A stretch of 64,000 bases of DNA from Physcomitrium patens. Its lineage: Eukaryota; Streptophyta; Bryopsida; Funariales; Funariaceae. Under the pieces are notes generated by a model. That model worked only from the letters and a program-made list of their open reading frames with translations, was not told the origin of the DNA and made no database searches. Where the stretch lies: positions 3,598,503-3,662,502 of the forward strand of contig NC_037265.1 of the NCBI RefSeq assembly GCF_000002425.4, in the 5' to 3' direction. The translations under genes and the position numbers were made by a program. Positions 6,229-62,180 of the stretch are shown here, one piece after another (the stretch's first letter is position 1; each line of letters opens with the position of its first letter).

Positions 6229-6239
6229 AGTCTCGACAA
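6229..6239 (-). other. Element A primer-binding site (self-priming type)
   Basis: Minus-strand TTGTCGAGACT, 2 nt inside the 5' LTR. It is the exact complement of AGTCTCGACAA, the predicted first 11 nt of the transcript (intact in the 3' LTR at 634-624). No tRNA-type TGG primer site occurs at the LTR edge. The pattern is that of Tf1/sushi elements, whose mRNA 5' end primes reverse transcription. Confidence 0.8.
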
Positions 6240-10693: not shown

Positions 10694-10704
10694 ACTCTTG
10701 TCAA
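10694..10704 (-). other. Element E primer-binding site (self-priming type)
   Basis: Minus-strand TTGACAAGAGT, 2 nt from the LTR edge at 10707, is the exact complement of the predicted transcript start ACTCTTGTCAA at 10892-10882. The TATA box (about 10915-10923) lies 31 nt upstream of that start. The sequence differs from element A but the pairing is the same length. Confidence 0.8.
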
Positions 10705-14339: not shown

Positions 14340-15392
14340 TGTCGTGTTGTAACACGATTATACAGTGAAAATAAAAAGAAAGGGGAATTTTATTAATATT
14401 CAGTTACCTCGAATATTGGGAGCATCGACCAACTCCAGTACAAATACTGAGTGGTCAGGTTTAGTCACTCCGTTACAGTCAGCCGGGGCATACTGAAATG
14501 CTCCATTCGATCCCAATAACGGGAGTCAGCAGGAAGAGAAGGACCAATTCACAAGACGGGTTCGAGGAGCCAATTGGATCCAATTTCAATAATCCAATCC
14601 GTGTCCTCTTATCCAATATGAGACCTGAATTGGCCGGTCAACCCAGTGTAGTCTAATTACGGAAAATCCAGGTCTTACTATGGGTCTTAGCCAATCTGAC
14701 GCGAGGACCAATTTGACCCAATTACTGGAACATCCAGGTTACTACGGGCATCTTTCCCAATATAGGACCTGAATTGGTCGGGCGACTCAATGTGGTCCCG
14801 ATTACGGGGTTCGATTCTGTTTCAGGCTGTCCTGTTCTCTGTGCCGTCTCAGGGAACGTTGTTTTCGGTAAATGGATTTCTTAAAGGCAAAAACGGAGGA
14901 GAAAGCTTGACGGCGAGAGCCAATTTCGGATCCAAGCTTGAGGTGGGAGCCAATTCCGGATCTAAGACGGAAGATTGAAGAAATGAAGTGGGTTTGAATA
15001 CTCTTGACTGTTTTGTGAAATCGAGTTACGTCTGTGATTGAAGGATTAAAAGGGTGTCTATAGGATTGAGTATGCGGAGTGAATGAAATTTATTGGGTTA
15101 ATCTAACAAGACAGTCAGTGGATACAAGATCGTAAGTACAAAGCAGTATTGAAGGTTAACAGTTTGGGTTGTACGGGGTTCTCTGTAACGTCTAGAGACC
15201 TACCGGTTGGGGCAAAAAGGACTTCGACAAGCAGTCGAAGAGCACCTGATAGATTTACGGTACATTGTTGCAGTCGTTTATATTCCAGCAGTCAAAAACT
15301 GATAGACTGCTTGACTATCGGCGAATCTCCATACTACCTTCTACAGCCAGACGCCCGGCGCGTTCTCAAGCAGGAAAGCACGTAATACGACA
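14340..15392 (+). repeat. Element C 5' LTR (with internal deletion)
   Basis: 1053 bp. Collinear with the 3' LTR at 21369-22702 except for about 280 bp missing after AGAAAT (near 14982). Other differences are scattered, mostly transitions. Confidence 0.92.
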
Positions 15393-15396
15393 TAAG

Positions 15397-15412
15397 TGGT
15401 GAACCGGACGTG
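15397..15412 (+). other. Element C primer-binding site (tRNA type)
   Basis: TGGTGAACCGGACGTG starts 4 nt after the 5' LTR. TGG followed by tRNA-complementary sequence is the usual form of an LTR-element primer site. I cannot assign the tRNA with confidence. It contrasts with the self-priming sites of the other families here. Confidence 0.6.
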
Positions 15413-15463
15413 AAAGCTTGAGGTAGAAGGTATTGGATTTCGGTTGATTTTATCTTTATTTTT

Positions 15464-16915
15464 ATGGAAAATAAAAATAAAAATTTTGAAGGATTTTTGG
15501 GAGAAATTTCTGGGGGGGAGTCTTCTAAAGGACAAGGTATGCACATGGATCCGTCTATTGCTAGTTTGTTTCAAGCCTTCTCATTGTCAATGCAGCAACA
15601 ACAAAGCAATGATCGAAAGGAAGCTTTGGCAACCAAAGCATTGCAAGCAGTGGTCAATAAAATTGATCAATTTGATGGGAGGAATATTTCAAGGTATTTA
15701 AGATGTTATGTTCGTGAAATGGAATTAAATCGGATTTCTGAGAAGAAAATGGTTGCACTATTTGGACTTGCCACGATACCGGAGATAAGGGACCACATTA
15801 CATCGATTACGGATCGTTGTGGGAATTCATGGGAGGATTTTTCACATGCATTGAAAGACGAATATTTCTTGGAAGATGCTGATCGCGTTACTAAGAAGTT
15901 GTTTCTGGGATGGATTGAACGGCCCAATAAGAATTTGCAAGCAACAGAGCTACTAAGGGAATTTGAGAGGCAGTACTCTCAATTATCGAAGGTAGAAAAA
16001 TTGACATTGGAGCCGAACAAAGTTGATCTATTTCTTCAAGCTGCTGATGGAGAATTGCAAGAGAAATTAGAACCCCTTCTTGAAGACAAAGAAGAAGATG
16101 AAGGATTGATAACGAAGTGGAAGAACGTTGAAGATGCGGTGGGGTTGCTTACAAAAAAAGAAAGGAGGAAGGATAGGAGCAATATTCCGAAAACAGTACA
16201 AGCACCCAAAGCTCCAGTACGTACAACACCACCGACAATGCCTACAGTTCAACCTTCGACATCCTTGTCAAAGAAAACAGATATGGGTATGGAAGAAATT
16301 ATACGAGGAATGCGAGATCTTCAAATCAAATTGGCAAGACTTGAAGAGAATACTTCTATAAATAATTCGAAGAATGTTTCAAAACAAGGATATATACAAA
16401 GATGCATTTGGTGTGATGATGCTTCATACACTAGAAAAGATTGCAATGAATTTAATAATATGATACGGTAGGGAATTATTTGCTGGAAAGATGGGAAGAT
16501 AGCATTGAAAGATAGGGAGGATCTTCTTCAAACCAATTTTGGCAAGGGAGGAATGAGAGCATTGGTTCAAGATTACTTAAAAGAGCATGAAACAGTAGTA
16601 CGAGAAAGTGCAAGTTATGGTGCTAGAGTAGATGATGCAATTGGTGGAAGTACGGAAACTAGTGAGTTTTGGGCTTCTGCCGTTTCTACAATGCAAGAAG
16701 GGAAATTACCTCGAGAAGCGTTATTGAGAACTGCAGCTACAATACGAGGAAGAACAGGTTGGGAGGATCCTGTTGAGTCTCTTTCAGTTCATGCATATAT
16801 TGCTAAGAGCCAACATGAAGCTTTGATGGAAGAAAAAAGACGAGGAAATTTTGATGATACTAGAGAAGGAAATTCTTTTAAGAGGCAAACTCGAGGAGAC
16901 AAGGCTCGGGAGGCA
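15464..16915 (+). pseudogene. Element C gag (truncated by the assembly gap)
   Basis: Starts with ATG at 15464 (MENKNKNFEGFLGEI) and is open for 335 codons to TAG at 16469-16471. The same frame then continues (KDREDLLQTNFGKGGMRAL) into the N gap. The capsid-like region has FDGRNISRYLRCYVREMEL near residue 73. The nucleocapsid knuckle is CIWCDDASYTRKDC, a CX2CX4HX4C finger whose His is Tyr. The pattern resembles gag/protease proteins of Ty3-like elements common in seed-free plants and fungi, from general family knowledge. The TAG fits a CAG-to-TAG change. Confidence 0.8.
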
Positions 16916-17580
16916 NNNNNNNNNNNNNNNNNNNNNNNNNNNNNNNNNNNNNNNNNNNNNNNNNNNNNNNNNNNNNNNNNNNNNNNNNNNNNNNNNNNNN
17001 NNNNNNNNNNNNNNNNNNNNNNNNNNNNNNNNNNNNNNNNNNNNNNNNNNNNNNNNNNNNNNNNNNNNNNNNNNNNNNNNNNNNNNNNNNNNNNNNNNNN
17101 NNNNNNNNNNNNNNNNNNNNNNNNNNNNNNNNNNNNNNNNNNNNNNNNNNNNNNNNNNNNNNNNNNNNNNNNNNNNNNNNNNNNNNNNNNNNNNNNNNNN
17201 NNNNNNNNNNNNNNNNNNNNNNNNNNNNNNNNNNNNNNNNNNNNNNNNNNNNNNNNNNNNNNNNNNNNNNNNNNNNNNNNNNNNNNNNNNNNNNNNNNNN
17301 NNNNNNNNNNNNNNNNNNNNNNNNNNNNNNNNNNNNNNNNNNNNNNNNNNNNNNNNNNNNNNNNNNNNNNNNNNNNNNNNNNNNNNNNNNNNNNNNNNNN
17401 NNNNNNNNNNNNNNNNNNNNNNNNNNNNNNNNNNNNNNNNNNNNNNNNNNNNNNNNNNNNNNNNNNNNNNNNNNNNNNNNNNNNNNNNNNNNNNNNNNNN
17501 NNNNNNNNNNNNNNNNNNNNNNNNNNNNNNNNNNNNNNNNNNNNNNNNNNNNNNNNNNNNNNNNNNNNNNNNNNNNNNNN
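16916..17580. other. Assembly gap (665 N)
   Basis: Run of N within element C between the end of gag and the retropepsin region. True length unknown. Any reading frame drawn across it is meaningless. Confidence 1.
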
Positions 17581-20500
17581 AGCAACATTTCTTCGTTCAG
17601 ATACAACGTCTTATCCGTTGATTTTAGGACAACCTTATATCACGGCAACACGGATGGAAACAAAGATACTTGACGATGGTTCTGCTTATGTAAGGATACA
17701 GAGCGAAGATGGGAGGAAAGCTGTACAATTTCTATCAGTACCTCCTAACCATGAACGGAATCGAGATAGGTTGAGGGAGAAACCATTGCCAAAGATTGTT
17801 GAAGGATTTAAGGATTTTGGGGAGGTACCACTGTAAAGCGAGATCATGAAGGTACAAAAGAGGAGGTACTCTCGCGAGATGAAGGTGCCTTTGATGCGAG
17901 TTTTATTGGTATATTGGAGAATGGAAATATTATGTATAAGAAAGTTGATGATTTTAAAAGAAAAGAAAGAAAAAGATTATATGATATTGAAGGACAGTTA
18001 TGCAAGATAGGTACATTGCAAGATGATGAGAGGATTTTGGGTGTTTATGAAGAAAATGGACTGGAAGATTCATTGGAATTGATTACATCTATTGGGTTAG
18101 GGGATAATGATAAGATTGTTGAGATTCATTCGAGAGAGGTTTATACCATGCTTGAATCTTTTCAAGCACCAAAAGTCACAGTAGAGACGAGATATAAAAC
18201 GGCAGATAAGAAGGTAAAGCCTGTTGCCGGACCATTACTAGAGGATTCTAAAGAACAAATGGGAGAAGCATCAAAAGAAGCGAGTTTAAGAGATCCAATG
18301 AGTATTGGACATCAGTTTACTGAAGAGACTTTTGAAGAATTGAAGATTGGTTCTGATGGTTCTTTATTGCCAGAGGAAATTACTTGCTTCAAAAAGATGT
18401 TGGCTAAACAAGGTAGATCGTTTGCCTTCGAATCTCATGAAATTGGGTGTGTGGATCCAAATATTATAACACCTATGGTTATCTTCACTGTACCGCATGT
18501 ACCTTGGAATCTAAGACCAATTCCAGTACCGAGGGCACATTTACCTAAATTGGTGAAACTATTGAAAGAAAAGATAAAGATGAAAATATTAGAACCTTCA
18601 TTTGCGCCGTATTCTAGTCGATGGTTTACGGTACCTAAGAAGAATGGGTCACTACGGTTTATTCAAGATATGCAGCCGGTGAATGCTTTAACTGTCAGGA
18701 ATGCAGGAATTGGACCTATTGTGGATGAATTTGCTGAGGCGTTTGCTGGAAGGGCGATCTATTCAATGGATGATTTGTATTCAGGTTATGATCAATTTCA
18801 ACTTGCCGAAGGAAGTAGAGATATGACAACGATGAGAACACCGCTTGGATTGGTTAGAATGTGCACTCTTCCTCAAGGCGCGACCAACTCAGTTGCGCAT
18901 ATGATGAATGGGATGAATAAAGTATTGAGAGATTTTATTCCGGAAAAGACTATGCCTTTTCTGGATGATGTTCCTATAAAAGGGTGCAGAGAAGGAGACA
19001 AGGATGAAACTTTAGATACGAGGGGATGTCGCAGATATATTGTTGATCATATACAAGATTGTGAAAAGATTTTAACTCGGCTTGGAGAAGTTCATCTTAC
19101 ATTATCGGGTATGAAGTCCGTATTTGGAGTGCGAGAGGTTGTAATTGTTGGACATTTATGTGGATCTTACGGAAGAAAACCAGATCCGACTAAAGTTGAT
19201 GCAATTGGAAGGATGAAAGAGGATTGTGGTTCTTTAACAGAGGTTCGCAGGTTTTTGGGTGCATGTGTATTTTATCGAATCTGGATCCCTCATTTTGCTC
19301 CCATGATTGCCCATCTAAAATTCATGCCGCCATGGTCCAGACATCACGTTAAGTTATCTGTGTTTAAATGTAGCAAATCATACCAACATGATTGATGTCC
19401 CTCCATATTGAGGAAGGTTGATTATAAGTGCAATAGACCAGTGATTCTTACTGTAGACGCTAGTCCAATTGCCGTTGGATGGGCGGTGGGTCAAGATGAT
19501 TCGAATGGGAGTAGATTTGCAGTTTGATTTGGGACTAAAGTTTTAAGTATTCGTCAGCGTGCATATTCGCAAGTCAAAAGAGAACTTTGGGGAGTCGTTT
19601 CGGCTATGAAAGTTGAAAAGGACTATTTGATTGGGGCAGTAGTAGTAATTGAAACAGATTGCTTGCCATTGCTTGGAATGATTATTAACTGTTCAACGCC
19701 AGATATTGCAATGTTGAGATGGATTGCTTATATTAAGTCACTAAATCCAGAATTTAAGCTTATCACTGGAAAGGACAATTTAGTAGCAGACATGCTATCT
19801 CGAGCAAGATACGAGAGGGAAGACAAAATGGTTGAAGACATTGATGATGTCGGATTGAAATTCTATTCAATATCAAATCTCAACAGAGAAGGCAAGCTAT
19901 TTCTTGAAGAATCTTATGAAGGAGAATTATTGGATATTGGTCATTATTTGAATACCTTGTCTAAGCAGGGGAATTGGTTTACAGAAAAATTCAAACAAAT
20001 AAGAAAAAAAGCATATGGATTTTTACTTCGAGATGGATTCTTATGGAAGAGACCGAAGAAAGGAATTGGGATGCCACAACAAGTGATAGGCAAAAGGGAA
20101 GAAAAACTAAAATTATTAAAAGAGTTTCATGATAGTTTATGGGCAGGGCATAGAGGAATCTGGGCTACTTTTGCTAAACTCAAGGAACAATATTGGTGGA
20201 AAAATATGTATCAAGATGTGCTCTCATTTGTAGAGTCATGTGAAATCTGTCAATCATATTCTAATATCCAACATCGAGATGGTCTTCATCCTACGTATCC
20301 TCTGGCTATTCATTTTAAATGGGTTGTTGATTTGGTTATTATGCCGGTTGGGTTATGGCAGATGAGATATTTGGTTTAAGATTGTGAAGATTTATCAAAT
20401 CAAGTAGAAGGAAGAGCATTGAGGACAAAATCTACAGAGGGGATTTGTAGGTTTTTGCTTGAAGATGTCATTTGCCATTACGGGTGCGTAGGAAAAATCA

Positions 20501-21306
20501 CTGCAGATCGTGGAGAATTAAATGCACAAGGAGCTCGTAAGTTCTTTATAAGATGTGGAGTTAAACTATCACTGACTACTGCTTATAATCCGGAAGGGAA
20601 TGCGAAAAGCGAACGCGGTCACCCGCCGATTGTGAAAGCATTGGTTAAAGCTTGTAATGGGAAGGTTAAAGAGTGGCCACGGCTTTTGTCATTTGCATTA
20701 TGGGCTGATCGAACAACACATAGTTCGGTGACAGGATATATGCCAGTAGAACTTATGACAGGTCAAAAACCAATTATGCCGATTGAAGAAAAGGTACTTA
20801 CTTGGAGTATGCTACCATGGGAAGATGGATTGACAAGAGAAGAACTTCTGGCTATTAGGATTCGACAATTGGAGCAAAGAACGGAAGATGTGCAGATAGC
20901 ATTGGAAAGGTTAAAAAGAGCAAGGTTACAAAATAAGGCGTGATTCGATAAGCAACATCGATTGAGACCAAAAGCAATCGAGGAAGGTGACTGGGTACTT
21001 GTTTATGACAATAGTCTGGATAATCAACATAGTACTTTGCGGAAATTTTTAAAACGTTGGTTTGGACCATATGTTGTAACAACTGTTCATGATAATGCGA
21101 CTTACTCATTACGGGAGTTAGATGGTACAAAATTGAAAATACCAATTGCAGGGAAGCGAGTAAAAATATTTAAACGAAGACACGCGGAGATGAATATGGA
21201 AGACTTTAATGAAGGTACAGAGATTCCGCAGCAAGAAGATGAAAGTGATATGGATAATGAAGGTGACGACGACGAACTGGACAAAGACGTAGGGGATATA
21301 TTCTGA
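17581..21306 (+). pseudogene. Element C pol (protease end, RT, RNase H, integrase)
   Basis: Protease remnant (YPLILGQPYITATR near 17615), then a one-base frameshift near 17835. After that a single frame carries everything to 21306. RT has FLDD at about 18958-18969 in place of YxDD. RNase H has TVDASPIAVGWAVGQD near 19460 and a TGA at 19525-19527. The integrase HHCC finger (H...H with CEICQ) is at about 20120-20260; the DDE residues are in VVDL, TADRGE and SERGH at about 20320, 20510 and 20615. The C-terminus is acidic (about 21235-21305) with no chromodomain. Other stops are at 19393, 20377 and 20941. The RT/RNase H connection near 19320-19410 is scrambled. Confidence 0.88.
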
Positions 21307-21356
21307 ATCAAACAGCAATTGGATAAATTGGTGCATACCGGAGGATGCACAGGTTC

Positions 21357-21368
21357 AGAGGGGGTGGA
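21357..21368 (+). other. Element C polypurine tract
   Basis: Purine-rich AGAGGGGGTGGA immediately precedes the TGTCG start of the 3' LTR, the expected site of plus-strand priming. Confidence 0.8.
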
Positions 21369-22702
21369 TGTCGAGTTGTAACACGATTATACAGTGAAAA
21401 TAAAAAGAAAGGGGAATTTTATTAATATTCAATTACCTCGAATATTGGGAGCATCGACCAACTCCAGTACAAATACTGAGTGGTCAGGTTCAGTCACTCC
21501 GTTACAGTCAGCCAGGGCATACTGAAATGCTCCATTCGATCCCAATAACGGGAGTCAGCAGGAAGAGAAGGACCAATTCACAAGATGGGTTCGAGGAGCC
21601 AATTGGATCCAATTTCAATAATCCAATCGGTGTTCTTTTATCCAATATGAGACCTGAATTGGCCGGTCAATCCAGTGCAGTCTAATTACGGGAAATCCAA
21701 GTCTTACTATGGGTCTTAGCCAATCTGACGCGAGGACCAATTTGACCCAATTACTGGAACATCCAGGTTACTACGGGCATCTTTCCCAATATAGGACCTG
21801 AATTGGTCGGGCGACTCAATGTGGTCCCGATTACGGGGTTCGATTCTGTTTCAGGCTGTCCTGTTCTTTGTGCCGTCTCAGGGAACGTTGTTTTCGGTAA
21901 ATGGATTTCTTAAAGGCAAAAACGGAGGAGAAAGCTTGACGGCGAGAGCCAATTTCGGATCCAAGCTTGAGGTGGGAGCCAATTCCGGATCTAAGACGGA
22001 AGATTGAAGAAATTCAGAGGATAAGGTTAGGTGGGATATAGTTTTGGGGGTGGGTTTTTTTTGAAGGAAATCGGGGGGGGGGGGAGCGAGTTTTCAAGCT
22101 TCTGCAAGGTTACCAGTTCGGTTTTCATTGGAGGTTTTTGAAGATCAAGGGAATTAGAGAGAGGAGCTTCATGCTTCGGGTCGGGGAAGGAAAGACATAG
22201 AATTTGGATTTTTCTTCTTCGTAGAGTTTTGGGGAAGACTGAGGCAATCGCTGCTGAAGTCAGTGTTGTAATGGTGAATCGGGATTTTTAAATGAAGTGG
22301 GTTTGAATACTCTTGACTGTTTTGTGAAATCGAGTTACGTCTGTGATTGAAGGATTAAAAGGGTGTCTATAGGATTGAGTATGCGGAGTGAATGAAATTT
22401 ATTGGGTTAATCTAACAAGACAGTCAGTGGATACAAGATCGTAAGTACAAAGCAGTATTGAAGGTTAACAGTTTGGGTTGTACGGGGTTCTCTGTAACGT
22501 CTAGAGACCTACCGGTTGGGGCAAAAAGGACTTCGACAAGCAGTCGAAGAGCACCTGTATAGATTTACGGTACATTGTTGCAGTCGTTTACATTCCAGCA
22601 GTCAAAAACTGATAGACTGCTTGACTATCGACGAATCTCCATACTACCTTCTACAGCCAAACGCCCGGCGCGTTCTCGAGTAGGAAAGCACTTAATACGA
22701 CA
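21369..22702 (+). repeat. Element C 3' LTR
   Basis: 1334 bp, TGTCG...CGACA. It contains about 280 bp (roughly 22014-22294, with a GA-rich stretch and a run of G) that the 5' LTR lacks. The segment is bordered by AAAT on both sides. Confidence 0.92.
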
Positions 22703-23050
22703 TCGTAGGTTAGGACCTTTTTCTATTGCTTATCGATTACATATATTGATCTATAACTCTTTGGCACATATATAGATGACTTGCCTTGCAAGTTAAGACA
22801 TGTAATTAGCAAAGTCAACATGTTTTGGAGGCCCTATAGGATATCACCACGTAGCTTCTAATTATAAGTATATAAGGGGACAAGAGTGAAGCCTTCTTCA
22901 CTCTTGTCAATGCCATTCTAGTCCTTAGTCTTGTTTCAAGACTTTCTAGTCTTCTTGTTTTTGGCAATAACCATTCTAATTAATATTACATTATCTTTCG
23001 AATGACTTTTTAGTTCTCTTTAGTGACATAAGAGTGTATCAAGGATTCTC
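22703..23050 (+). mobile_element. Element D, remainder: pol C-terminus stub and truncated 3' LTR
   Basis: After the C insertion the D sequence resumes (CGTAGGTTAGGACC, the RLGPF motif) for about 50 bp. It then jumps by an internal deletion into the 3' LTR at about 22760. The LTR keeps a TATA box at 22869 and the start 11-mer ACTCTTGTCAA at 22900-22910, 31 nt apart. The 3' boundary of the LTR is uncertain. Confidence 0.75.
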
Positions 23051-34004: not shown

Positions 34005-34474
34005 AAATATTGTTTATTGAGAAGAAATATATTCTTAGAAGCTTCATAGATGTAACTTTGACTTTATATATGTTTATATTAATTGATAGATTAGAAACTT
34101 GGTTAATAAATAAGCCATGTATCAAATATATTAATAGCATGTAGAATAAGCTAACTATGTGTCACACATATAAAAAATTTATCTTATAAGTTAAAACATG
34201 TATTTAGCAAAATGAACACATGTTGAAAGTCCTATAAAAAATTGTTATATACCTCTTAGTCAAAGAGTATATATGGAAGCAAGAATGAAGTCTTCTTCAC
34301 TCTTATCAATGTTTTTTTAGTCTTTAGTTTTGTTTCAACTCTTTCTACTCTTCTTGACTTTGGCAATAGCCATTCTAATTTAATATTATATCATCTTTAA
34401 GTGATTATCTAGTCTTTTTGAAGTAGATAATAATATTTTGATCTTTCAATTCTTCAAGATTTATGTCTTTGATA
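34005..34474 (+). repeat. Element F 3' LTR (decayed)
   Basis: Similar to the B LTR from its U3 (AGAAGCTTCATAGA) to its end (CTTTGATA for CTTGACA). The TATA box at 34268 and the transcript-start 11-mer ACTCTTATCAA at 34299-34309 keep the 31-nt spacing. The LTR start is lost. Directly after it the Helitron reading frame resumes. Confidence 0.7.
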
Positions 34475-35796
34475 TTAATCCATATTAAAGGTTTACAATT
34501 ATTTGAGCACTTAAAAACTATTTGTAGAATTTTCTATCCAACATTTAAAAGTAAAGGTATAGCTTTAGGATTGCTTGAAGATGATGAAGAGTAGTAACAA
34601 TGTTTAGAAAAGGCATCAAGAATATAAACTAGATCTCAATTTAGGTCATTGTTTGCTAATTTGTTACTACACAAAAAAATTCTAAATCCATTAAACTTTT
34701 AGGAAAAGATTTTGTAAAAAAAAACTTAGTTAATTCAATGCTTGTTTGCAAAGAAAATGTAGAATTAGCAATTTAATGGAAGAAAAAATTAAGGATTTTG
34801 GATTTTTTTTTTTTTTTGTTGGATAAGTTTTTCAAAGATTACAATGGATTTTTTTTTTTTTAAAAAAAAATTATAAAAACTAGTAAATCATTTTTCTACA
34901 AAATTTTTATAATTAAAGTTTGATTAATGCAAAAGATTGTCATATGTATTTTATCTTTGAAAATTACTGCATTGCCACTTAAAAAAAGAAAAATTGTCTA
35001 TTTTACATTTAAGATTCCATTAGATTGTATCAAAGACTTTTTTTCTTCAATTATTAAGAATTTCAACCATATTGAGTTTATTTATCAAATTTTGCTTATT
35101 ATTTGGAATGAACTTTTGATGTAACATTGTTATTATCCTAAGACAATTGATTGTTTCTTTAAAGACATTCAAAATATTGATTGTCCATTTTAAAGTACTA
35201 TAATAGTCTTTGGTAGAAATTTTTACATAATATTACTAATAATTATGAATAAAACTTGAGAGGAAATTGTAATAGCATCTTTTTGGCATTTAGCACTTTG
35301 GCCTCAAATAAAAATTTATACATTAAAAGAAAACATGAGATTGAATATAAATACACTTTAAGCAGATATCAAGTTTACTAATTAGCTTCTTTGGATATAG
35401 AATGCATGTACATGTTGTATATATTAATAGTGGTGCATTTGAATTTTTTATGGTTGCATTATTATTGACAAATATTTCTATTTATCACTTATCTAATAAT
35501 ATAATTATGCTTTATAATGACATAAATGTTGATTAATAATTAATATCTTTAATTAATATTTTTTATCTAAAGGTGGCAAAAGAGGGTGTATCAAATGATG
35601 CATTCTTAAGAAATATAATTATTTTATCTATACAAAATAATAACATAAAGGATATTAATAAAAATATTATGGCCATATTTTTTGAGGAAGAATAAGAATA
35701 TCTAAGCACCAATAAAATTATTATCAAAGATGGTATCAAAAATAATAATTTTTATTTAGTTGAATTAACTAAGTTACTTATTCCATCTAGAATGGC
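34475..35796 (+). pseudogene. Helitron helicase relic, middle part (H2)
   Basis: Conceptual translation follows Helitron order: IKGLQLFEHLKT, FYPTFKSKGIALGLLEDDEE, SRI.TRSQFRSLFANLLLH, then the SF1 helicase region FKIPLDCIKD, LLIIWNELLM (motif II, normally IWDEAPM), DIQNIDCPF, IIVFGRNF (normally FGGDFRQ), KENMRL, and near the end YLSTNKIIIKDG. The Walker A region near 34800-34870 is destroyed by T and A runs. Element B is inserted at the right end; the frame continues at 42140. Confidence 0.8.
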
Positions 35797-36334
35797 TGTC
35801 ACGGATATACATATAATTACCTACAAGAGTCGATAAAAGTATGTAAAAGTAGATAAAAGTAGGTTAATTATGCAATATCTTCTAAAGAAGCTTCCTAGAA
35901 GCTTCATAGACGCTGCTTTGACCTTATAGGAGTCCATAGTTGACTTTTAGGTTATAAACTTGGTCAACAAGTTAGCCATGTGCCACACATGTTGGTAGCT
36001 TGAAGGACAAGTTAACTACGTAATCCACTCATAGAAAACTTGCCTTGCAAGCAAAGACATGTGGCCTAGAAAGTCAACACATATTAGAGGTCTTATAGAA
36101 TATCGCCACGTGGCTTCTAGTTAGATAGTATATATAGAGGCAAGAGTGAAGCTCTCTTCGATCTTGTCAACTCCTTTCTTGCTTCTAGTCTAGTTTCAAG
36201 GGTCTCTAGTTTTCTTGTCTTTTGGCAATAGCCATTCCAGTTTCTCTTTCAATATATATATTTGTTTATTTACCTCTCTTTGAGTGAAGGCTCACTTGTC
36301 TGAATTATTTTTCATCGAATTCTTGTCCTTGACA
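35797..36334 (+). repeat. Element B 5' LTR
   Basis: 538 bp, direct repeat of 41602-42139. TATA box near 36129. The predicted transcript-start 11-mer at 36160-36170 has two changes relative to the intact copy in the 3' LTR. A few GAAnnTTC units occur near 35880-35912. Confidence 0.95.
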
Positions 36335-36336
36335 AA

Positions 36337-36347
36337 TTGACAAGAGT
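36337..36347 (+). other. Element B primer-binding site (self-priming type)
   Basis: TTGACAAGAGT, 2 nt after the 5' LTR, is the exact complement of ACTCTTGTCAA at 41965-41975 in the 3' LTR, which begins 31 nt after the TATA box. Same geometry as A, E and G. About 9 nt downstream comes the conserved box ATATCAGAGC. Confidence 0.82.
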
Positions 36348-36382
36348 GCACTTACAATATCAGAGCTTTGTTTTTCTTGAGT

Positions 36383-36452
36383 AAGAGTGGATTACCCCTT
36401 TCTCTTGACAAGACATAAGCGTATTAGAAGTTTGCGGATTACCCACTTCTAA
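36383..36452 (+). ncRNA. Element B leader stem-loops
   Basis: Two hairpins with a GGATTACCC loop: 36383-36387 with 36402-36406 (5 bp, AAGAG/CTCTT) and 36424-36431 with 36445-36452 (8 bp, TTAGAAGT/ACTTCTAA). The second stem differs from that of A and G (TTTAGAGG/CCTCTAAA) but pairs perfectly, so the structure is supported by covariation. Confidence 0.65.
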
Positions 36453-36545
36453 ACTGATATTATTCTTAGTATCTTCTTTGTTATCAAGTCTTTCTTTTCT
36501 TTTGTCTTGAGCAGTATCAAACAAATTTTTCTTCTTAGTGTCATT

Positions 36546-37550
36546 ATGGCAGAGCTTGTTGAAATGAAGAGTGCAATGGCACAAATGCAAGAGCAAATGA
36601 GGGAGTTAATGCTTGCGATGCATCAACTCAATTCACCAACATAGGAAAGAACAAGAATAGCAGAAAGTGGGGATATAGAGATGATCGGAGCTACTTCAAC
36701 ATCTACAACAAATCACGTTCCTTCTCCAATTGTACAACACCCTGTAAGCACTAGAGAACCAAGAATTGCCTTACCCGAGAAATTTGATGGTACGAGATCA
36801 AAGTTTCGAGGGTTCATCAATCAAGTACAATTGGCAATTGAACTTCAACCGCAAAGCTATCCAACTCGAGGATCACAAGTCACGTTTATTGGCACTCTAC
36901 TTTCTGGTTCTGCATTATCGTGGTTTTCGTCTTTTCTTGAACAACAAAATCCAGTATTGGATAATTTGGAAGCTTTTTTGGCGGAGTTTCGATCTATGTA
37001 TGGTGAACACGATGCAACTCGTATTGCAACAAATAAGATCCAAATTCTGCGACAAAAAAATCGCTCAGTAACAGTGTATGCTTCACAATTTTGACAACTT
37101 GCAATTGACATCAAGTGGGATGATGCTGCACTCATCAGTCAATTTCTTTATGGATTGCAATACGAAGTAAAGAAATTGATGCTCAACTTACCTGATCCTC
37201 AAACTTTGAGTCAAGCAATCGATTTTGCGATAAAATGTGATAATCAACTTTTTGAATTTCGATCCAAAAATCATTCACGGGAACCTCAACATTATTACTC
37301 AATGGCAACATCAACATCTTTGCCAAACGTACATTCGGAAGTAGAAGACATGCAAATTGACGCGGTACGTTTTAAACCCCTAACTGAGCAAGAAAAGTTT
37401 CGTCGTCGTCAAGAAGGATTATGTTTATATTGCGGAGAACCTAAGCACACTGCTCAACATTGTCCAAAGAAACGATGCAACTATAAAATGAGGGGTACGA
37501 CGGTCAAAGAAGACAACATGTCGAAAAACATATTCGTCCAGCTACAATAG
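36546..37550 (+). pseudogene. Element B gag
   Basis: Starts with ATG at 36546 (MAELVEMKSAMAQMQEQM) and would end at the conserved UAG 37548-37550, 334 codons. Two in-frame stops occur at 36642 (TAG) and 37092 (TGA, in place of an Arg CGA). Capsid core KFDGTRSKFRGFINQVQL and LSWFSSFL; an intact CCHC knuckle CLYCGEPKHTAQHC near 37428; then a basic tail. Orthologous along its length to E gag and more distantly to A gag. Confidence 0.9.
37523..37529 (+). promoter_or_regulatory. Candidate -1 frameshift heptamer, element B
   Basis: GAAAAAC, read G-AAA-AAC in the gag frame, sits where A, E and G have GGAAAAC. Pol is open in the -1 frame through it. An ATG at 37556, 5 nt after the UAG, gives reinitiation as an alternative in this copy; A, E and G have GTG there. 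Confidence 0.45.
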
Positions 37551-37555
37551 GAACC

Positions 37556-40500
37556 ATGCAGCTGGAACCTTGTACAATTCCTTATGAAGGTCCTATCCTC
37601 TCCTCAGAACCCTCTCCTAATTTTATAATAGACTTATATTTAGGACCTAAGAATTACAAAGCCTCTGCTTTATTAGATTCGAGAGCCTCAGCATGTTTTT
37701 TAGATGAACAATTTGTTAAAAGTCGTAAAATACCTTTTGTACAGAAACCTAAACTAGTACATGTAGAAGTCATAGATGGTCGTCCCTTGTCTTCTGGAGA
37801 TGTCACTCATGAAACTCATCCTATAAAAGTAACAATAGACGGTCATGATAGCTACATAGCTTTTAACATAATTAAATCCCCGTCCAATCCAGTTATTTTA
37901 GGTTTATCTTAGCTAGAAAAATATAACCCTCGAATAGATTGGAATTCGCGTAAACTTGATTTTTTCCAGAGCGTTATTAATAGTTCTACCAACCAAGTAA
38001 AAAATTATAAGTCTAGTATAGTAAAACCCGTACTGATAGGTGCAAAAGCATTTATACATGCAGCAAAAGAAGGATCAACTTTTGCTATTTATGCTGCACC
38101 TATTTCTGAAAACGTAAAGACTTCAAGTGGCATTCCAAGTCAATATCAGGAGTATCAAGACGTTTTTGAAAAAAAGAATGCAGATATTCTTCCTGAGCAT
38201 CGCACATATGATTGTTCAATTGACCTCAAGGAAGGAACTCAGCCACCATTTGGACCAATTTACAGTTTATCGCAAGATGAGATGGCTGAACTCAAGACAT
38301 ATATTAACGAGAATTTAGCGAAGAATTTCATACGCCATTCAAAATCTCCAGCAGGAGCTCCAATTCTATTCGTAAAGAAAAAAGATGGATCTTTACAAAT
38401 GTGTGTTGATTATCGAGGACTCAACAAGATCACAATCAAGAACATGTATCCATTACCTTTGATATCAAGACTCCTTGACCAGTTGAATCAAGCTAAGATC
38501 TATACAAAAATAGATCTAAGAAGAGCATATAATCTAGTACGGATCAAAGAAGGAGATGAATGGAAGACTGCGTTTCGAACCAGGTATGGACATTTCGAAT
38601 ATAATGTCATGCTCTTTGGACTCACGAATGCACCAGCTACTTTTCAACATCTAATGAAAGATGTATTTCGTGAATTCTTAGACAATTTTGTCATCTGCTA
38701 TCTAGACGATATCTCGATCTATTCTAAGAACGTCGAAGAACATGAAATACATGTTCGTCAAGTATTACAAAAACTTAGAGATGCAGGATTGTACGCCAAG
38801 ATGGAAAAGTATGTATTTCACACTACTCAAGTTGACTTTTTAGGATACATCATTTCAAATGATGGTCTCATGATGGATTCTAAGAAAGTCCAAACAATCA
38901 TGGATTGGAAGATTCCAAAGACAGTAAGAGATGTCCAATGTTTCTTGGGATTTATCAATTACTATCGGATCTTCATCAAAGATTTCTCACAAGTTGCAGC
39001 TCCACTTACACGCTTGACTAGTAGAGATAAATTCCAATGGAATCAAGAAGCGGAAGCAGCATTTGAAGCCTTGAAGACATCGTTTGTCTCTGCACCAGTC
39101 TTATATCGTGTTGACTTTTCCAAGGCATTTTTTATGGAAACAGATGCATCAAATTTTGCCTTGATGCAGTTTTATCACAAATGGGAATAGATGACAAACT
39201 TCATCCGATAGCTTTTCATTCAAGAAAATTCTCAGCAGCCAAGATCAATTATGAGATCCACGATAAAGAACTTCTTGCGATCATGGATTCTTTTCAAGAA
39301 TGGCATCATTATCTAGAAGGCGCTTCTAGTCCAGTCACTGTGTATACAAATCACAAGAATCTCGAGTATTTCATGTCAGCACGCGTGTTGAATCGTCTTC
39401 AAGCTCGTTGGAGTATGTCTTTGTCAAGATTCGAGTTCATTATCACTTATTGGCCAGGAAAACAACAAGGTTTGTCTGATGCCCTATCTAGACATTCTTA
39501 TTTTGCACCAAAAGAAGGAGATGCAGCTTTTGAGCAACAAAGAACGGTCCTCTTGAAACCAGAGCAATTTCATCTCCGAGTAATGAAATCAACATTGACT
39601 GTTGATTCAACTTTTCTCAAGCAAATCTAGTCTAGTGTGTCCTCAGATCCTCTTATTGATGATATCAAGAATAATTCTTCCAAGTCTCATGATCCTTCTA
39701 AGTTCGAGTTCAAGAATAATCTATTATATTTTGAAGGACGCCTATATGTTCCAGAAGGAGAAGCACGTTTACGTGTTCTTCAAGCACGTCATGACTTTCC
39801 AGCAGGAGGGCACTTTGGATATAATAAGACTTTGGAACTCATATCAAGAGATTTTTGGTGGCCACAAATGTGGAAGTCAGTCAAAAACTTTGTACAATCA
39901 TGTGATATTTGTTCAAGATCAAAAATTCCTCGTCATCGACCTTACGGACTTCTTCAGCCATTACCTATACTAGAACAACCATGGTCTTCTGTTTCTATGG
40001 ATTTCATCACAGATCTTCCAAGCTCAAGATCTTATGATTCTATATTTGTGATAGTAGATCGTTTCACCAAGATGGCACACTTTGTGCCATGTACAAAATC
40101 TATCACAGGTGAAGAAACAGCTAAGCTTTTCATTGATAATATCTATCGCTATCATGGATTACCTAAAGATATCATATCGGATAGGGGAACTCAATTTGTG
40201 TCAAGATTCTGGAGGACCCTTTTCAAGATTTTAAAAGTGGACATAAAGCTATCTTCGGCTTTCCATCCTCAAACTGATGGACAAACAGAGTGCGTAAACT
40301 AAGTCTTGGAGCAATATTTAAGGTGTACTATCAACTATCAACAAGATGATTGGACAACCGTTCTGCCATTGGCAGAGTTTGCTTATAATAATACAATACA
40401 TTCTTCCACGCAACAAACACCTTTCTTTGCCAATTATGGCTATCATCCACGACTTGATACTTTTGATTTTTCAAAAGTTGATAATCCTGCAGCAGAAGAT

Positions 40501-41043
40501 ATGGCAAATCGGTTGTCAAAGTTACATGCAATAATGAAGACGCAATTGAAGGAAGCTCAAGAACGACAAAAGATAAATGTAGATCTATATCGTAAGGAGC
40601 AACCACAACTCAACGTGGATGATAAGGTATGGCTACTTTGTCGCAATATCAAGACTACTCGACCTTGTGACAAGTTGGACTATCGTAGGCTTGGCCCCTT
40701 TTTTGTTTGTGAACAGATCAACCCAGTTGCATATCGGTTACATCTACCGGAGTCAATGAAGATCCATCCTGTATTCCACGTGTCTCTTCTTGAACCATAT
40801 AAGACAGTGGATATACAAGGAAGAAGACAAATGCCACCGCCTCATATAGAAGTAGATAATAATGAAGAATTTGAGGTAGAAGAGATATTAGACTCGAGGC
40901 GGCGCCGAAATAAGCTGGAATATCTTGTTCATTGGTGCGGATATGATATTAGTGAACGCACATGGGAGCCATCCAGAAATCTAGCAAATGCATCAGCTAA
41001 AGTCAAAGTTTTTCATCAACGACATCCATCAAAATCAAGATGA
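37556..41043 (+). pseudogene. Element B pol (protease, RT, RNase H, integrase, chromodomain)
   Basis: Protease LLDSRASACFLDEQF (DSGA changed to DSRA). TAG at 37910 replaces Trp. RT has [19 protein letters not shown] near 38375 and YLDD at about 38698. A one-base deletion near 39161 in RNase H (METDAS) shifts the frame; RNase H continues with YTNHKN. TAG at 39628. Integrase HHCC finger at about 39789-39920, Asp in SMDFITDLP and ISDRGTQF, then the TDGQTE motif; TAA at 40300. The last segment, 40306-41043, is open and carries an intact chromodomain at about 40868-40980 (FEVEEILDSRRRRNKLEYLV, then WEPSRNL). In known chromoviruses this domain targets insertion to heterochromatin. Confidence 0.93.
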
Positions 41044-41137
41044 AAATCTCTCTTATAAAAGAGACAAGATTGAGGCAAGATAACATTCAATTTCCTATCC
41101 TTGTTTGTAACTTCTTTACATTTGTGACGCTAATTAG

Positions 41138-41560
41138 ATGGAGAGCCAACAACCAGCGGATTCAACTCAAGAACCTTCGTTTGCTGACTTACCGGATGAG
41201 ACATTGCGATTGTCACAACCTTCAAGATGACACAACCGAGATGAAGACCCTCAAGAACCACATATTCTTCTTCGAATAGATGGTGAGATACAACGCGTTT
41301 GGTATCACGACCTTGGAAGAGATTCTCGATGTTTGGTGATATTACTGGAGATAGGAACGATTGCTGATGGTGTTTCAAATATATTATTTGAACGAAGTTA
41401 TGAAGGCCTCAATAATGATCAAATAACAGGGTGGTCTTCTCGTCCTGGAATGGGACACTATCGATGGCTAAGAGGACCCATCAACTACCTTCGAAGAGAA
41501 CAGAGATCAGAGTATGTAGCAAATACAATTTGCCGCATATTAGACTTTCTCAACATATAA
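41138..41560 (+). pseudogene. Element B third ORF (ORF3), unknown function
   Basis: 141-codon frame, ATG at 41138 (MESQQPADSTQEPSFADLPD) to TAA at 41560, with a single in-frame TGA at 41228. It lies 94 nt after pol in a different frame and ends 27 nt before the polypurine tract. The C-terminal half contains GMGHYRWLRGPINYLRREQ, closely matching ORF3 of element A. No signal peptide, membrane segment or zinc motif is evident; the N-terminus is acidic and Gln/Ser-rich. Function unknown. Confidence 0.6.
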
Positions 41561-41587
41561 TCACCGCTCCTCGTGGAACTCGTTCCT

Positions 41588-41601
41588 AGAAGGGGGGGTA
41601 A
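41588..41601 (+). other. Element B polypurine tract
   Basis: AGAAGGGGGGGTAA directly before the TGTCACGG start of the 3' LTR. Confidence 0.85.
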
Positions 41602-42139
41602 TGTCACGGATATACATATAATTACCTACAAGAGTCGATAAAAGTATGTAAAAGTAGATAAAAGTAAGTTAATTATACAATATCTTTTAGAGAAGCTTCC
41701 TAGAAGCTTCATAGACGCTGCTTTGACCTTATAGGAGTCCATAGTTGACTTTTAGGTTAGAAACTTGGTCAACAAGTTAGCCATGTGCCACACATGTTGT
41801 TAGCTTGAAGGACAAGCTAACTACGTAGTCCACTCATAGAAAACTTGCCTTGCAAGCAAAGACATGTGGCCTAGAAAGTCAACACATATTAGAGGTCTTA
41901 TAGAATATCGCCATGTGGCTTCTAGTTAGATATTATATATAGAGGCAAGAGTGAAGCTCTCTTCACTCTTGTCAACTCCTTTCTTGCTTCTAGTCTAGTT
42001 TCAAGGGTCTCTAGTTTTCTTGTCTTTTGGCAATAGCCATTCCAGTTTCTCTTTCAATATATATATTTGTTTATTTACCTCTCTTTGAGTGAAGGCTCAC
42101 TTGTGTGAATTATTTTTCATCGAGTTCTTGTCCTTGACA
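41602..42139 (+). repeat. Element B 3' LTR
   Basis: 538 bp, TGTCACGG...CTTGACA. The TATA box (TATATATAG) starts at about 41934 and the intact ACTCTTGTCAA transcript start is at 41965-41975. Confidence 0.95.
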
Positions 42140-42545
42140 ATGGCTACATCAATGACTTTGTCTTAAAATTTGGATTTTGGTTATACTTCTAAGAAATATT
42201 GCTCTTTACCAAGGACTTTGCAATGGAACTTGATTGGTAATTACATAACTAATAGATTAAATTCTTAAAGCAAGAATTATTCAATGACAATTTGCTTGAA
42301 ACTTGGTATTTAACTTGTAGATTATATTAACTTTCACAACAAAAGAACTTCCATTCATTCTAAGATAGAAAAATTTCCAATCATCTTATATTTGTAATAA
42401 AAAAAAAAAAAAAAATCAAGAAAAATTGGTGAAGTACGATAGTTTGGATCTATGACAATCTATTTTTTTCCATGGTCTACTTCATATAATATTCTCTTAA
42501 TGTACTTCTTCATGTTTTATTAAGTTTCTTCATCCTAAAAATAAA
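42140..42545 (+). pseudogene. Helitron helicase relic, C-terminal part (H3)
   Basis: The reading frame broken by element B at the ATGGC target resumes here. Conceptual translation gives SLPRTLQWNLIGNYITNRL, similar to the LCNGTRL region of Helitron helicases, then IYDNLFFSMVYFI and LNVLLHVLLS, similar to the LPEPVFSHGQLYVALSRV and C-terminal region. Heavily decayed, with an A run at about 42402-42417. Confidence 0.7.
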
Positions 42546-50409: not shown

Positions 50410-51405
50410 CTACGCCATATAAAGAGATTTCGCGTTGCCTCGATTTCGTTGAACTTGCTGAGATGCAGCAGAATACTTCGACGCAGTCCGCGCTACAAAT
50501 GCGGGCTGGGGAGGTGGTGAGACGTTCTTCGGCGGAGGACTGCTCCTTTGCGGGACACTCACTTGTCGTGGCGGTGAAATGTTCTTCGGGCCAGGTAAGG
50601 ATGGGGTAGAGGCGTTCTTCGGCGGAGACCCACTATCCCGGTAAGCCATCGGAGTGTGGAATTCCATGACAGGCTTCATCTCGGAGATGCTCTGCAAAAC
50701 CGGCTTCCACGCAAACTTACGCCGCCTCCGCGCTCTTCGAAGATAGAATTCCTGTCTCTTCGAAACATACATTCCTAATTCGGACCTTGCGGCACTTTTT
50801 AGTATCATCTGAGTAATCTCGTCTTCGGCAGTTGCCGTCGGCGATAAGGCCTCTCCGGAAAGATTAGGGAGTGGCGATTCCATTAGGTCTATTGAAATTC
50901 TAGGAAGTCGAAGTGCTCGCAAGCAATGCCGAATGAAAACGAGCTTAAGGTGCTTCGATGGTCGGTCTCCAGCGAGGTGAGGCTCTGGGCCCTCGTTTCG
51001 TATGGATTCAAGCTGCTGCATCGTTACTGAATGATAATCAAAAACCTTCCGTGACTGTTGGCTCCCATGCGTCGGGCTTCGCAACTCCCGCACATGGACC
51101 CCATGTTTGGAAAATCGTGGCAAAATCTTGGATCCTCGATGTACTACCTTCGGCTGACGTTCTAAGAAAGGTTGGGCATTTGGCGTTGCGCAAACGAAGT
51201 AGGTCACCCCATACTCGAGCACCTCTTCCGCTGCCATACGATTGGTGATTGTGTAAGGGGTGCTACCGCAGACATAGTAGTCTGGATTACCCAGAAGAAG
51301 ATCGTGCACGCTACAAGATTTGCTCAGATTCTCGACGTGGCCGTCGGGGTAGACCACCCGGACATAACCTTGAACCGTGACACAAGAAAACGGAGTGAGA
51401 CCCAT
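50410..51405 (-). CDS. PADRE (DUF4228) domain protein, 331 aa
   Basis: Plant-specific PADRE protein; family members are stress- and pathogen-responsive with disordered tails, and their molecular function is largely unknown. The first ATG of the frame is at 51405 (MGLTPFSCVTVQGYVRVVYP). The frame is open 67 codons further upstream but without ATG, so that part is taken as 5' leader. The PADRE core is at residues about 13-75: GYVRVVYPDGHVENL, then a Leu-rich helix (VHDLLLGNPDYYVC), and VLEYGVTYFVCATP. A basic stretch with FAWKPVLQSISE at about 231-242 matches the W.P.LQ.I.E motif in the C-terminal part of many family members. Residues 257-302 are a Pro/Ser disordered tail with repeated PPKN/GPKN. 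Gly2 suggests possible myristoylation but the context is weak. No intron is needed and no frame damage is seen. Confidence 0.8.
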   Translation of the reverse strand: MGLTPFSCVTVQGYVRVVYPDGHVENLSKSCSVHDLLLGNPDYYVCGSTPYTITNRMAAEEVLEYGVTYFVCATPNAQPFLERQPKVVHRGSKILPRFSKHGVHVRELRSPTHGSQQSRKVFDYHSVTMQQLESIRNEGPEPHLAGDRPSKHLKLVFIRHCLRALRLPRISIDLMESPLPNLSGEALSPTATAEDEITQMILKSAARSELGMYVSKRQEFYLRRARRRRKFAWKPVLQSISEMKPVMEFHTPMAYRDSGSPPKNASTPSLPGPKNISPPRQVSVPQRSSPPPKNVSPPPQPAFVARTASKYSAASQQVQRNRGNAKSLYMA

Positions 51406-52660
51406 TGGAACCTCGATCCTTCCCTCACAAGGAATAAATAGTTCTGATGCGGTCCACCTCTTTCTAGTCAAATCCCACACGATCGCTTCGGCAACATCAG
51501 GCTCTCTTCTCCGCTGAGCGGATACATAGATCCTCGACCCGACTAAAACTCTACGTTCGATTGAAACTCGTCGAGCTTGTAAACCAACAATTGTAATAAG
51601 TGGCAAGGGACTCCAACAAACCGGTGGTGCCCCTAAATTGCAAACATTCTCAGCTCAGAGACCTCTTCTCATCAGTCAAACAACCTCCAAAATCACAGAT
51701 GAAGCTTCACGCGCTTCAATTCCAAATTTCAGCCAGGTCGAGTGTAACTTCGCTGCCGAACTCTCAGCCTGCTCGCTGACTCAATACGAAGCCTCACAAA
51801 TCAATTGTCAACATAAATTATCCGAGCCAATACAAGCCCCTTCACAACATCCGCGCAACTACTGCGGAACCGCTGCCAATGAAAACCATCACCGTTCCTC
51901 CTCGAAGTCCGCTAACAACGACGCATCCTCTCACCGCGTCCTAGACGCATGTCACCGCCGCGCTGCGAGAGTCAACCATACAAAAATTCCGCTCCTATGC
52001 ATCAACTAAAGCAGGAGGAGGAGCTCCAAAGCCAGCCCTGAAAAGGCCCGCAGCCAATCTTGACCCGCTCCGAAACTCTGAACTACAGAACTACCACGGA
52101 CCCGGTGCGCACATCTGAACACCTCAGGTACATGCGCCTAACAAACAACACGGCGATTCCGCTACCAGACACACGCACGCTATAACAGTCTAAATATAAA
52201 TATGCTGGTCTGGCACATCCAAAAACTACCCTAGCACCGAATTTTTACCGAGAGCAAGGGAGCGCTTCCCCTCGCCACGTGCGCCCCGGACTTGGAATCG
52301 GACCCAGATAGTTTACAACAATTTATTACACTGACATCCATCTCGTGGCCATGTCTATCTGCGACAGCAATCCCGTAACCTCAACACACTTGAACGCCTC
52401 GTAACGACCTCTTCGTTTCAAACTGCTCGCACTGGTGATGGCAGGCACACGATCTTCCACTGGCTTCAAAACTAAAAGCCCTCTCGACAGCTCACGCACA
52501 TACCACTTGACTTGTCCACTATCTCCGACACTTGTAAACTCTCTCTAGTAAAAAAAAACTACATCACCGCTCCTCGTCTCGTCTTCGTCATCGAGCTCAC
52601 TCCTCCCTCTCTTCCACTTGCGTAAAACTAAGAAAACCCTATCCTTCTTAGCTCCGTCCG
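51406..52660 (-). promoter_or_regulatory. PADRE gene 5' leader and promoter region (inferred)
   Basis: Upstream of the ATG at 51405 the DNA stays GC-balanced with no other recognisable gene. A TATA-like TATTTATATTT on the minus strand near 52203-52193 would put the transcription start near 52165 and give a leader of about 760 nt. Start site and any leader intron are not determined. Confidence 0.3.
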
Positions 52661-61946: not shown

Positions 61947-61957
61947 TTGTCGAGACT
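61947..61957 (+). other. Element G primer-binding site (self-priming type)
   Basis: TTGTCGAGACT, 2 nt after the LTR, exactly complementary to AGTCTCGACAA at 61807-61817, the predicted RNA 5' end 32 nt after the TATA box. Both halves are intact within this one copy. Confidence 0.85.
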
Positions 61958-62036
61958 TCACTCACCTCAGATATCAGAGTTAGTTTCTTCCTCGTTAGAG
62001 TGCGGATTACCCCTCTGCTTGGAAGTGTACTAGCAT

Positions 62037-62180
62037 TTTAGAGGTTGCGGATTACCCTCCTCTAAACTGATACTTCTTTTGTTACAATATTGGAGTCCTA
62101 TTCTTCTTGGAGAGAGTGGATTATCCCTTTTCTTGAAACTCTTAAGGCATTTTAGAGGTTGCGGAGTACCCTCCTCTAAA
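62037..62180 (+). ncRNA. Element G leader stem-loops
   Basis: Two 8-bp perfect hairpins TTTAGAGG/CCTCTAAA: 62037-62044 with 62059-62066, and 62151-62158 with 62173-62180. Loops are TTGCGGATTACCCT or a one-base variant. Less regular GGATTA.CCC copies precede each one. Same array as in A. Confidence 0.65.

Follow-up and report, generated by a model that had tools for sequence, protein, structure and literature searches.

The 64,000-nucleotide stretch of the Physcomitrium patens genome analysed here (henceforth the window) carries related long terminal repeat (LTR) retrotransposons, designated A, B, D, E, F and G, whose features are collected in Table 1. The two 538-bp LTRs of element E are identical at 524/538 positions and have the 5-bp target site duplication (TSD) ATGGC on both sides, and the chromodomain at the end of its integrase is as expected for a self-primed chromovirus of the Tf1/sushi type. 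A preliminary description of this DNA had proposed that, in two families, the first 11 nucleotides of R are fully complementary to a primer-binding site (PBS), which in B and E lies 2 nt inside the LTR, the sequence of the pair differing between the families.

Table 1. Positions of the retrotransposon features in the window
Feature	Position	Strand	Basis or remark
E 5' LTR	35797..36334	+	538 bp, TGTCAC...TTGACA; TSD ATGGC at 35792-35796
E 5' LTR, putative transcript start and self-primer site, decayed GATCTTGTCAA	36160..36170	+	9/11 identical; two bases off 3' LTR copy
E self-PBS TTGACAAGAGT	36337..36347	+	2 nt inside LTR
E leader, predicted three-way junction, two hairpins with GGATTACC in loops	36349..36470	+	folding, z -3.15
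E reverse transcriptase/RNase H open stretch	38282..39190	+	PF00078, PF17919
E integrase C-terminus, Tf2-1-like SH3 domain and chromodomain	40306..41043	+	PF24626 E 1.2e-20, PF00385 E 2.9e-15
E 3' LTR	41602..42139	+	TSD ATGGC at 42140-42144
E U3-R hairpin, U3 arm GCAAGAGTGAAG paired with CTTC and the first 8 bases of R	41945..41972	+	-19.7 kcal/mol, z -4.93
E 3' LTR, intact self-primer ACTCTTGTCAA	41965..41975	+	sequence match
B self-primer ACTCTTGTCAA	10882..10892	-	sequence match
B self-PBS TTGACAAGAGT	10694..10704	-	sequence match; 2 nt inside LTR
A 5' LTR self-primer site with one change, AGTTTCGACAA	6367..6377	-	sequence match, 10/11
A self-PBS TTGTCGAGACT	6229..6239	-	sequence match
A 3' LTR self-primer AGTCTCGACAA	624..634	-	sequence match
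G self-primer AGTCTCGACAA	61807..61817	+	sequence match
G self-PBS TTGTCGAGACT	61947..61957	+	sequence match
Self-primer ACTCTTGTCAA in LTR taken for D; perfect U3-R hairpin	22900..22910	+	z -4.65
Self-primer site taken for F, one change ACTCTTATCAA; hairpin decayed	34299..34309	+	z -1.26

Much of that description stands. The sequence TTGACAAGAGT lies 2 nt inside the LTR of both B and E, and the distance from TATA to the presumed start, given as 31-32 nt, measures 31 nt in four elements (B, D, E and F) and 32 nt in the other two (A and G). Placing ACTCTTGTCAA at the start of B, E, D and F holds for B, D and the 3' LTR of E, but the 5' LTR of E matches at only 9/11 positions and the site taken for F has one mismatch; likewise, the combination of AGTCTCGACAA with TTGTCGAGACT described for A and G is present in G and the A 3' LTR, but the A 5' LTR matches at 10/11. 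In E and A, a full match to the PBS is therefore found only in the primer copies of the 3' LTRs, not in those of the 5' LTRs. Counting exact and one-mismatch occurrences together, the 11-mers have 9 and 7 matches in the window (shuffle means 1.88 and 0.85), and none of 100 shuffles was as high.

Two primer classes across the genome

Of the "several" positions said to differ between the families, there are exactly three (2, 6 and 8 of the 11), each mirrored in its own PBS, and they separate an A class (AGTCTCGACAA) from an E class (ACTCTTGTCAA). The exact A-class primer-PBS pair occurs at 1,639 places genome-wide (one gap form of the pair search undercounts, with 189 matches), and exact cross-class pairs occur 2 and 1 times within the gap ranges searched. 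Features of these two families served as anchors for the searches, and within that range only two primer classes were encountered; one search, swamped by AT-rich chance matches, went unused, and Rfam and a tRNA scan contributed nothing. The three cross-class matches (L164, L165 and L166) were considered as mixed elements and rejected, since in each case two LTRs of different classes, in opposite orientation, lie side by side or one inside the other.

Among 85 sampled 5' ends, 84 were parsed, with L088 left out because it has no leader; parsing required a TATCAGAG-like core within 2 mismatches after the PBS. Primer and PBS paired at 11/11 positions in 54 of the 84, comprising 29/54 A-class and 25/30 E-class loci (25/54 A-class pairs were imperfect), and E copies anchored on the reverse transcriptase and retaining a leader were perfect in 18/19 cases. 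None of the 84 parsed loci combines R and PBS from different classes; when the classes are crossed, a mean of 8.1-8.7 of the 11 positions pair, counting G.U. Thus, subfamilies with intact LTRs but non-complementary 11-mers were not encountered, either among the parsed loci (0/84 mixed) or among the three genome-wide matches, which are neighbouring inverted LTRs.

The claim that the second family keeps the 11-nt pairing with a different sequence, beyond chance, is borne out by the alignment, in which 93.7% of cells are paired, compared with 28-47% in slid registers. Cells changed on both sides number 29, against a shuffle mean of 9.8, and 0/500 shuffles reach 29; counted as pairs changed on both sides, the shuffles were not beaten (4 against 3.4; 187/500). 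The three changed positions are essentially one class split, so together they represent about one evolutionary event. In E-class elements, changes at R position 7 and PBS position 5 coincide in 5/18 loci with the PBS change and in 0/28 without it (Fisher p 0.006), where the 18 are 17 loci chosen for that change plus L127, after 3/20 were dropped as too diverged. This hints weakly at covariation within a class, the PBS-change group being probably older; the imperfect A-class pairs (25/54) point the other way.

The two R copies of an element were also compared. A changed 5' R accompanied an intact 3' R in 5 of 6 usable loci, while L040 differs in all three copies. These six came from 12 loci (in L045, L065 and L066 the stretch lacked a 3' LTR, L054 had an E-type LTR, and L056 and L057 had LTRs of other elements), and their 3' LTR partners were assigned without a TSD; a PBS with TATCAGAG followed none of the six 3' LTRs (0/6).

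Probable priming by the element's own RNA

The pairing of R with the PBS is genuine, and the reading that fits it best is self-priming of the Tf1 type in Tcn1/Tf1-sushi-like chromoviruses. We put at roughly 87% the probability that the elements are chromodomain Ty3/gypsy retrotransposons that use their own RNA to prime reverse transcription in the manner of Tf1. The RNA would start with an A, 31-32 nt downstream of TATA, this spacing being what places the 11-mer at the beginning of the RNA, and its first 11 nt would pair back onto the PBS 2 nt inside the LTR. Cleavage after nucleotide 11 would then allow the 11-mer to prime minus-strand DNA; the 11 RNA bases would remain attached to this DNA and later be copied into the plus strand, and the PBS would thereby be rewritten from the primer in each cycle. 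In Tf1 the primer is reportedly not removed, to go by the title of a paper.

We propose that primer and PBS agree in both families because of this rewriting. Covariation need not mean selection on paired mutations: recopying of the PBS from the RNA primer in each round, which Tf1-type elements are expected to perform, would produce it automatically. Alternatively, R and PBS could have mutated independently, with selection for compensatory changes maintaining the covariation, and selection on this sequence probably exists, as the U3 arm described below also tracks the class changes though it is not copied from the primer. We nevertheless regard this account as unlikely, given that no mixed-class elements were found in the 84 parsed loci or the genome-wide cross-class search, and that recopying is expected from the known cycle.

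An alternative is that a tRNA primes at an initiator-tRNA-Met-like site (TGGTATCAGAGC in T6, ATATCAGAGC elsewhere) about 10-14 nt past the self-PBS, the 11-mers being incidental. The T6 12-mer, which corresponds to the PBS expected for initiator tRNA-Met, follows TTGTCGAGACT in full in 298 T6 loci (control 0), and the parsed loci have the TATCAGAG-like core behind the PBS, although parsing demanded it within 2 mismatches. In eight T6 stretches taken for their 3' LTR, however, what comes after the LTR end CGTGACA is other sequence, which places the LTR boundary upstream of the self-PBS, so DNA primed by a tRNA would not terminate at the LTR. The self-PBS occupies the site 2 nt from the LTR end, and the T6 12-mer lies 10 nt beyond the self-PBS. 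Moreover, TATCAG is predicted to pair with CTGATA downstream, as the 5' side of a closing stem, and this can account for its conservation, and tRNA priming leaves the primer-PBS covariation unexplained. We consider it highly improbable and reject the idea that the primer site is a tRNA-iMet PBS, whether functional or a relic: the 12-mer is real, but the core is explained by the leader stem.

When 5' ends were folded freely (seven correctly oriented of 11, the four on the wrong strand having been dropped), the full 11-bp primer-PBS duplex formed in 5/7 minimum-energy folds, and forcing it in the other two cost 0.8 and 1.2 kcal/mol. Points that we count against self-priming are the single class split underlying the primer-PBS variation, flanking duplexes that are inconsistent across the seven folds, the behaviour of longer stretches (11 primer-PBS pairs in B and 10 in A, but 0 in G and E), the lower rank of the base after the PBS once probably older E loci are included (see below) and the tRNA-like 12-mer of T6. 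The complementarity might also serve RNA structure or regulation and not priming, since the leader is predicted to be highly structured and R pairs as well with the U3 arm as with the PBS. The length of 11 and the position 2 nt from the LTR end nevertheless fit the Tf1 scheme, and copying of the primer end would be expected to leave a changeable base directly behind the PBS, so we give this possibility very little credence.

Self-priming is itself already known in relatives. It is predicted for the majority of Tcn1 elements, which are present in moss and clubmoss (Neumann et al., 2019; PMC6317226); these chromoviruses share with ours a moss-type host, a chromodomain and the predicted self-priming, but primer classes, a U3 arm and a recurrent site are absent from the relevant passages. 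Tf1 of Schizosaccharomyces pombe (Tf1/sushi group) likewise has an 11-nt primer from the RNA 5' end, a PBS adjoining the 5' LTR and a chromodomain, whereas the passages concerned (PMC7175516, PMC10085805) mention neither an arm in U3 that pairs with the primer nor a changeable position following the PBS. The flanking duplexes of the three-duplex "pretzel" described there for the Tf1 5' UTR (PMC10085805) were not consistently found in the moss folds. Tj1 of S. japonicus differs in its fungal host (PMC4600332). RLG1 of P. patens, a very abundant chromodomain gypsy element of the moss genome (PMC7466625), is probably the same family as our elements; "self-prim" and "Tcn1" are absent from the main text of that paper. 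What had been a prediction for the Tcn1 clade thus becomes a strong case, with 1,639 exact A-class pairs and no genuine mixed element encountered.

The U3 arm and the base after the PBS

A third complementary segment, the U3 arm, lies just upstream of the presumed start, pairs with the primer and bears the same class changes. Given this position, only the 3' copy of R can be locked in a hairpin, and the arm may thus lock the 3' primer copy and leave the 5' copy for use. At -18.9 to -21.3 in five LTRs of the window, the U3-R hairpin exceeds the primer-PBS duplex (-14.4, -16.2) in stability. That the inverted repeat is instead a promoter or poly(A) element has not far short of an even chance: in the window LTRs it sits between TATA and the first bases of R, a possible place for a DNA element. 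Both the greater stability of the hairpin and its seventh pair from the loop, which in the A class is G.T in 53/54 loci and hence a mismatch in DNA but a wobble pair in RNA, argue for a function in RNA. If the arm does lock the 3' copy, three-way pairing would be a simple answer to primer choice in a self-primed RNA with two identical ends.

The base immediately after the PBS is unusually changeable, as if it marked the 5' end of the primer. It has 13 inferred changes in the A class (next site 8; rank 1 of 95 variable sites) and 6 in the E class (next 5; rank 1 of 86), and in an E sample enlarged by 20 probably older loci it is tied third of 126. Together with the U3 arm it is our addition to the self-priming scheme, neither being mentioned in the literature passages cited. 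We tentatively suggest, as a combined proposal that may well fail, that the U3 arm evolved to fold only the 3' primer copy, the element thereby telling its ends apart, and that untemplated bases are added when the uncut primer is copied up to its capped end, so that the recurrent base allows the RNA 5' end to be located with genome sequence only. If true, this base would be a sequence-only marker of the primer 5' end that is usable in other genomes. Elsewhere, R position 2 is changed from G to C in 3/40 A-type 5' LTRs, and in this 40-locus sample, assembled after removing two chance matches and double listings, 21/31 changes are G>A or C>T.

Primer and PBS pairing in two sequence classes

The preliminary description held that the R start (the first 11 nt of the inferred element RNA, the proposed self-primer) and the PBS, its complementary 11-mer, pair fully in both families. 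This is borne out perfectly in the LTR retrotransposons B and G. Element E has the TSD ATGGC, a PBS 2 nt inside and 538-bp LTRs with 14 differing sites, two of which fall in the R start of its 5' LTR, and full pairing with the PBS therefore holds for the copy in the 3' LTR but not for the 5' copy. Element A follows the same pattern, its 5' copy being mismatched by one change.

We sampled 85 loci from the genome (470 Mb, 101 contigs). The A-type sample comprised 40 5' ends anchored on the TATA box and ATATCAGAG, taken from the first places on contig 1 (30.2 Mb) with double listings and two chance matches left out; since it was found via ATATCAGAG, conservation of that sequence in it is not evidence. 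Twenty E-type loci were anchored on RT and picked among 130 scored matches, out of 43,644 first-look RT candidates genome-wide. A further 20 were picked for variety among 100 listed matches to the leader hairpins, and elements A, B, E and G and locus L008 were added. Twenty loci selected for a changed PBS were kept apart from these.

Parsing took in 84 of the 85 loci. Perfect 11/11 pairs were found in 29 of 54 loci of the A class and 25 of 30 of the E class, the two primer-PBS sequence classes. With R sought in a distance range fixed by PBS class, none of the 84 loci joined an R of one class to a PBS of the other. The E-class base appeared in A-class R copies at position 2 (3/54) and position 6 (4/54), and at position 8 in none of 54. 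Genome-wide, the exact A-class R and PBS lie 105-135 nt apart at 1,639 places, the same on both strands because the search pattern is its own reverse complement. An A-class R with an E-class PBS at that spacing occurs at 2 places, and an E-class R with an A-class PBS, 155-185 nt apart, at 1. All three cross-class matches were rejected as mixed elements on examination of their sequences: in each, an LTR of one class adjoins an inverted LTR of the other class or is interrupted by it.

Across the primer-PBS alignment 93.7% of cells were paired, versus 28-47% in slid registers, and 29 cells were changed on both sides versus 9.8 in shuffles. Counted by pair, 4 showed a double change versus 3.4, which does not beat the shuffles. 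Apart from rare cases the changes sit at positions 2, 6 and 8, and thus represent one split counted across many sequences. Within the E class, a PBS position-5 change was accompanied by an R position-7 change in 5 of 18 loci versus 0 of 28, groups that were selected differently and probably differ in age too; this hints at lineages whose primer change got into the PBS. A-class pairing has decayed (25 of 54 pairs imperfect). Of six usable elements whose 5' R has changed, five keep an intact 3' R, a pattern expected if the change came after insertion. Three loci (L041, L065 and L072) with differing backgrounds carry G>C at R position 2 of the 5' LTR with the PBS unchanged; a 3' LTR was found for two, both unchanged.

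A third arm in U3

A stretch of twelve U3 bases, which stops 8 nt ahead of the start, pairs with CTTC and the 8 bases that open R. Five of the six window LTRs give this hairpin, with energies from -18.9 to -21.3 kcal/mol and z scores between -4.65 and -6.00; in the LTR F it is decayed (z -1.26). Among 42 distinct rows, 94.2% of arm-R cells pair and 28 are changed on both sides versus 9.3 in shuffles, with no excess of doubly changed pairs (4 versus 3.7) or of further pair types (14 versus 13.6). The U3 arm mirrors all three primer class positions, with E-class loci showing A-U or G.U at position 8. In 53 of 54 A-class loci one pair is G.T, which favours RNA over DNA as the acting form of the repeat. 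As the element RNA would start within the 3' arm, the hairpin could form at the U3-R end of the RNA only. The hairpin may serve to keep the unused 3' copy of the primer locked; that the repeat acts as a promoter or poly(A) element is about equally likely.

The base after the PBS

When trees are made without the site under test, the base after the PBS requires 13 changes among the 54 A-class loci (next site 8, median 3) and 6 among the 30 E-class loci (next 5, median 1), ranking first of 95 and of 86 variable sites. As the pattern was first noticed in the A-type sample, a fairer test comes from the E class. In 22 E loci anchored on RT or the leader, the base again ranked first of 65 (4 changes; next 3); with the 20 changed-PBS loci added to the E class, it tied for third of 126 (9 changes; best 10). 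By simple diversity it was not top, ranking 37/212, 3/215 and 7/213 in three groups. The flanking bases do not place it in a CpG. Such changes could arise if copying reaches the end of the primer RNA and untemplated bases are added.

In the T6 subfamily (sampled as L111-L120) the self-PBS is followed by 10 nt and then TGGTATCAGAGC, which is identical to the initiator tRNA-Met PBS; this arrangement occurs at 298 loci genome-wide, and TAGTATCAGAGC is present in some copies. Counted by eye among 100 places listed, the base after the self-PBS was 66 G, 31 A and 3 C, and the second 98 C and 2 T; seven invariant bases follow, and the tenth varies again (90 C, 9 T, 1 G).

Group membership, leaders and neighbouring features

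The elements fit the Tf1/sushi-Tcn1 group in having a chromodomain, a Tf2-1-like SH3 domain and a self-PBS. The great abundance of chromodomain gypsy elements, together with a PADRE-domain gene in the window, points to a land-plant host, and this abundance fits the RLG1 family of the moss P. patens (PMC7466625). One paper groups P. patens elements with Tcn1 and reports one Selaginella element with evidence for neither tRNA priming nor self-priming (PMC2864245); another predicts that most Tcn1 elements are self-primed (PMC6317226), and the mechanism is therefore not new. Neither the U3 arm nor the recurrent base after the PBS was mentioned in the literature searched, which included part of that on Tf1.

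The leaders are predicted to fold into three-way junctions, each with two hairpins whose loops mostly carry GGATTACC, single or double in tandem; L139-L143 have them too. Fold z was -1.82 to -3.18 for the four window modules. Closing stems vary and still pair (TATCAG/CTGATA, CAATATTGG/CCAATATTG, CGATTTCAG/CTGAAATCG). The double motif has 3,707 matches genome-wide, the reversed control 0, and an Rfam search of E's leader gave no match. The module may be a packaging signal.

Leader modules and other features of the window
Feature	Position	Strand	Remarks
Leader module	36349-36470		element E; predicted fold
Leader module	6091-6228	-	predicted fold
Leader module	5986-6105	-	predicted fold
Leader module	61958-62080		predicted fold
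Nested LTR element	14340-22703		own RT; tRNA-style site TGGTGAACCGGACG just inside LTR; does not look self-primed
PADRE-domain gene	50410-51606	-	PADRE is a land-plant domain

Two T6 3' LTRs (L131 and L136) share a flank similar to the nested element's own LTR, reflecting either a repeated target or a duplication.
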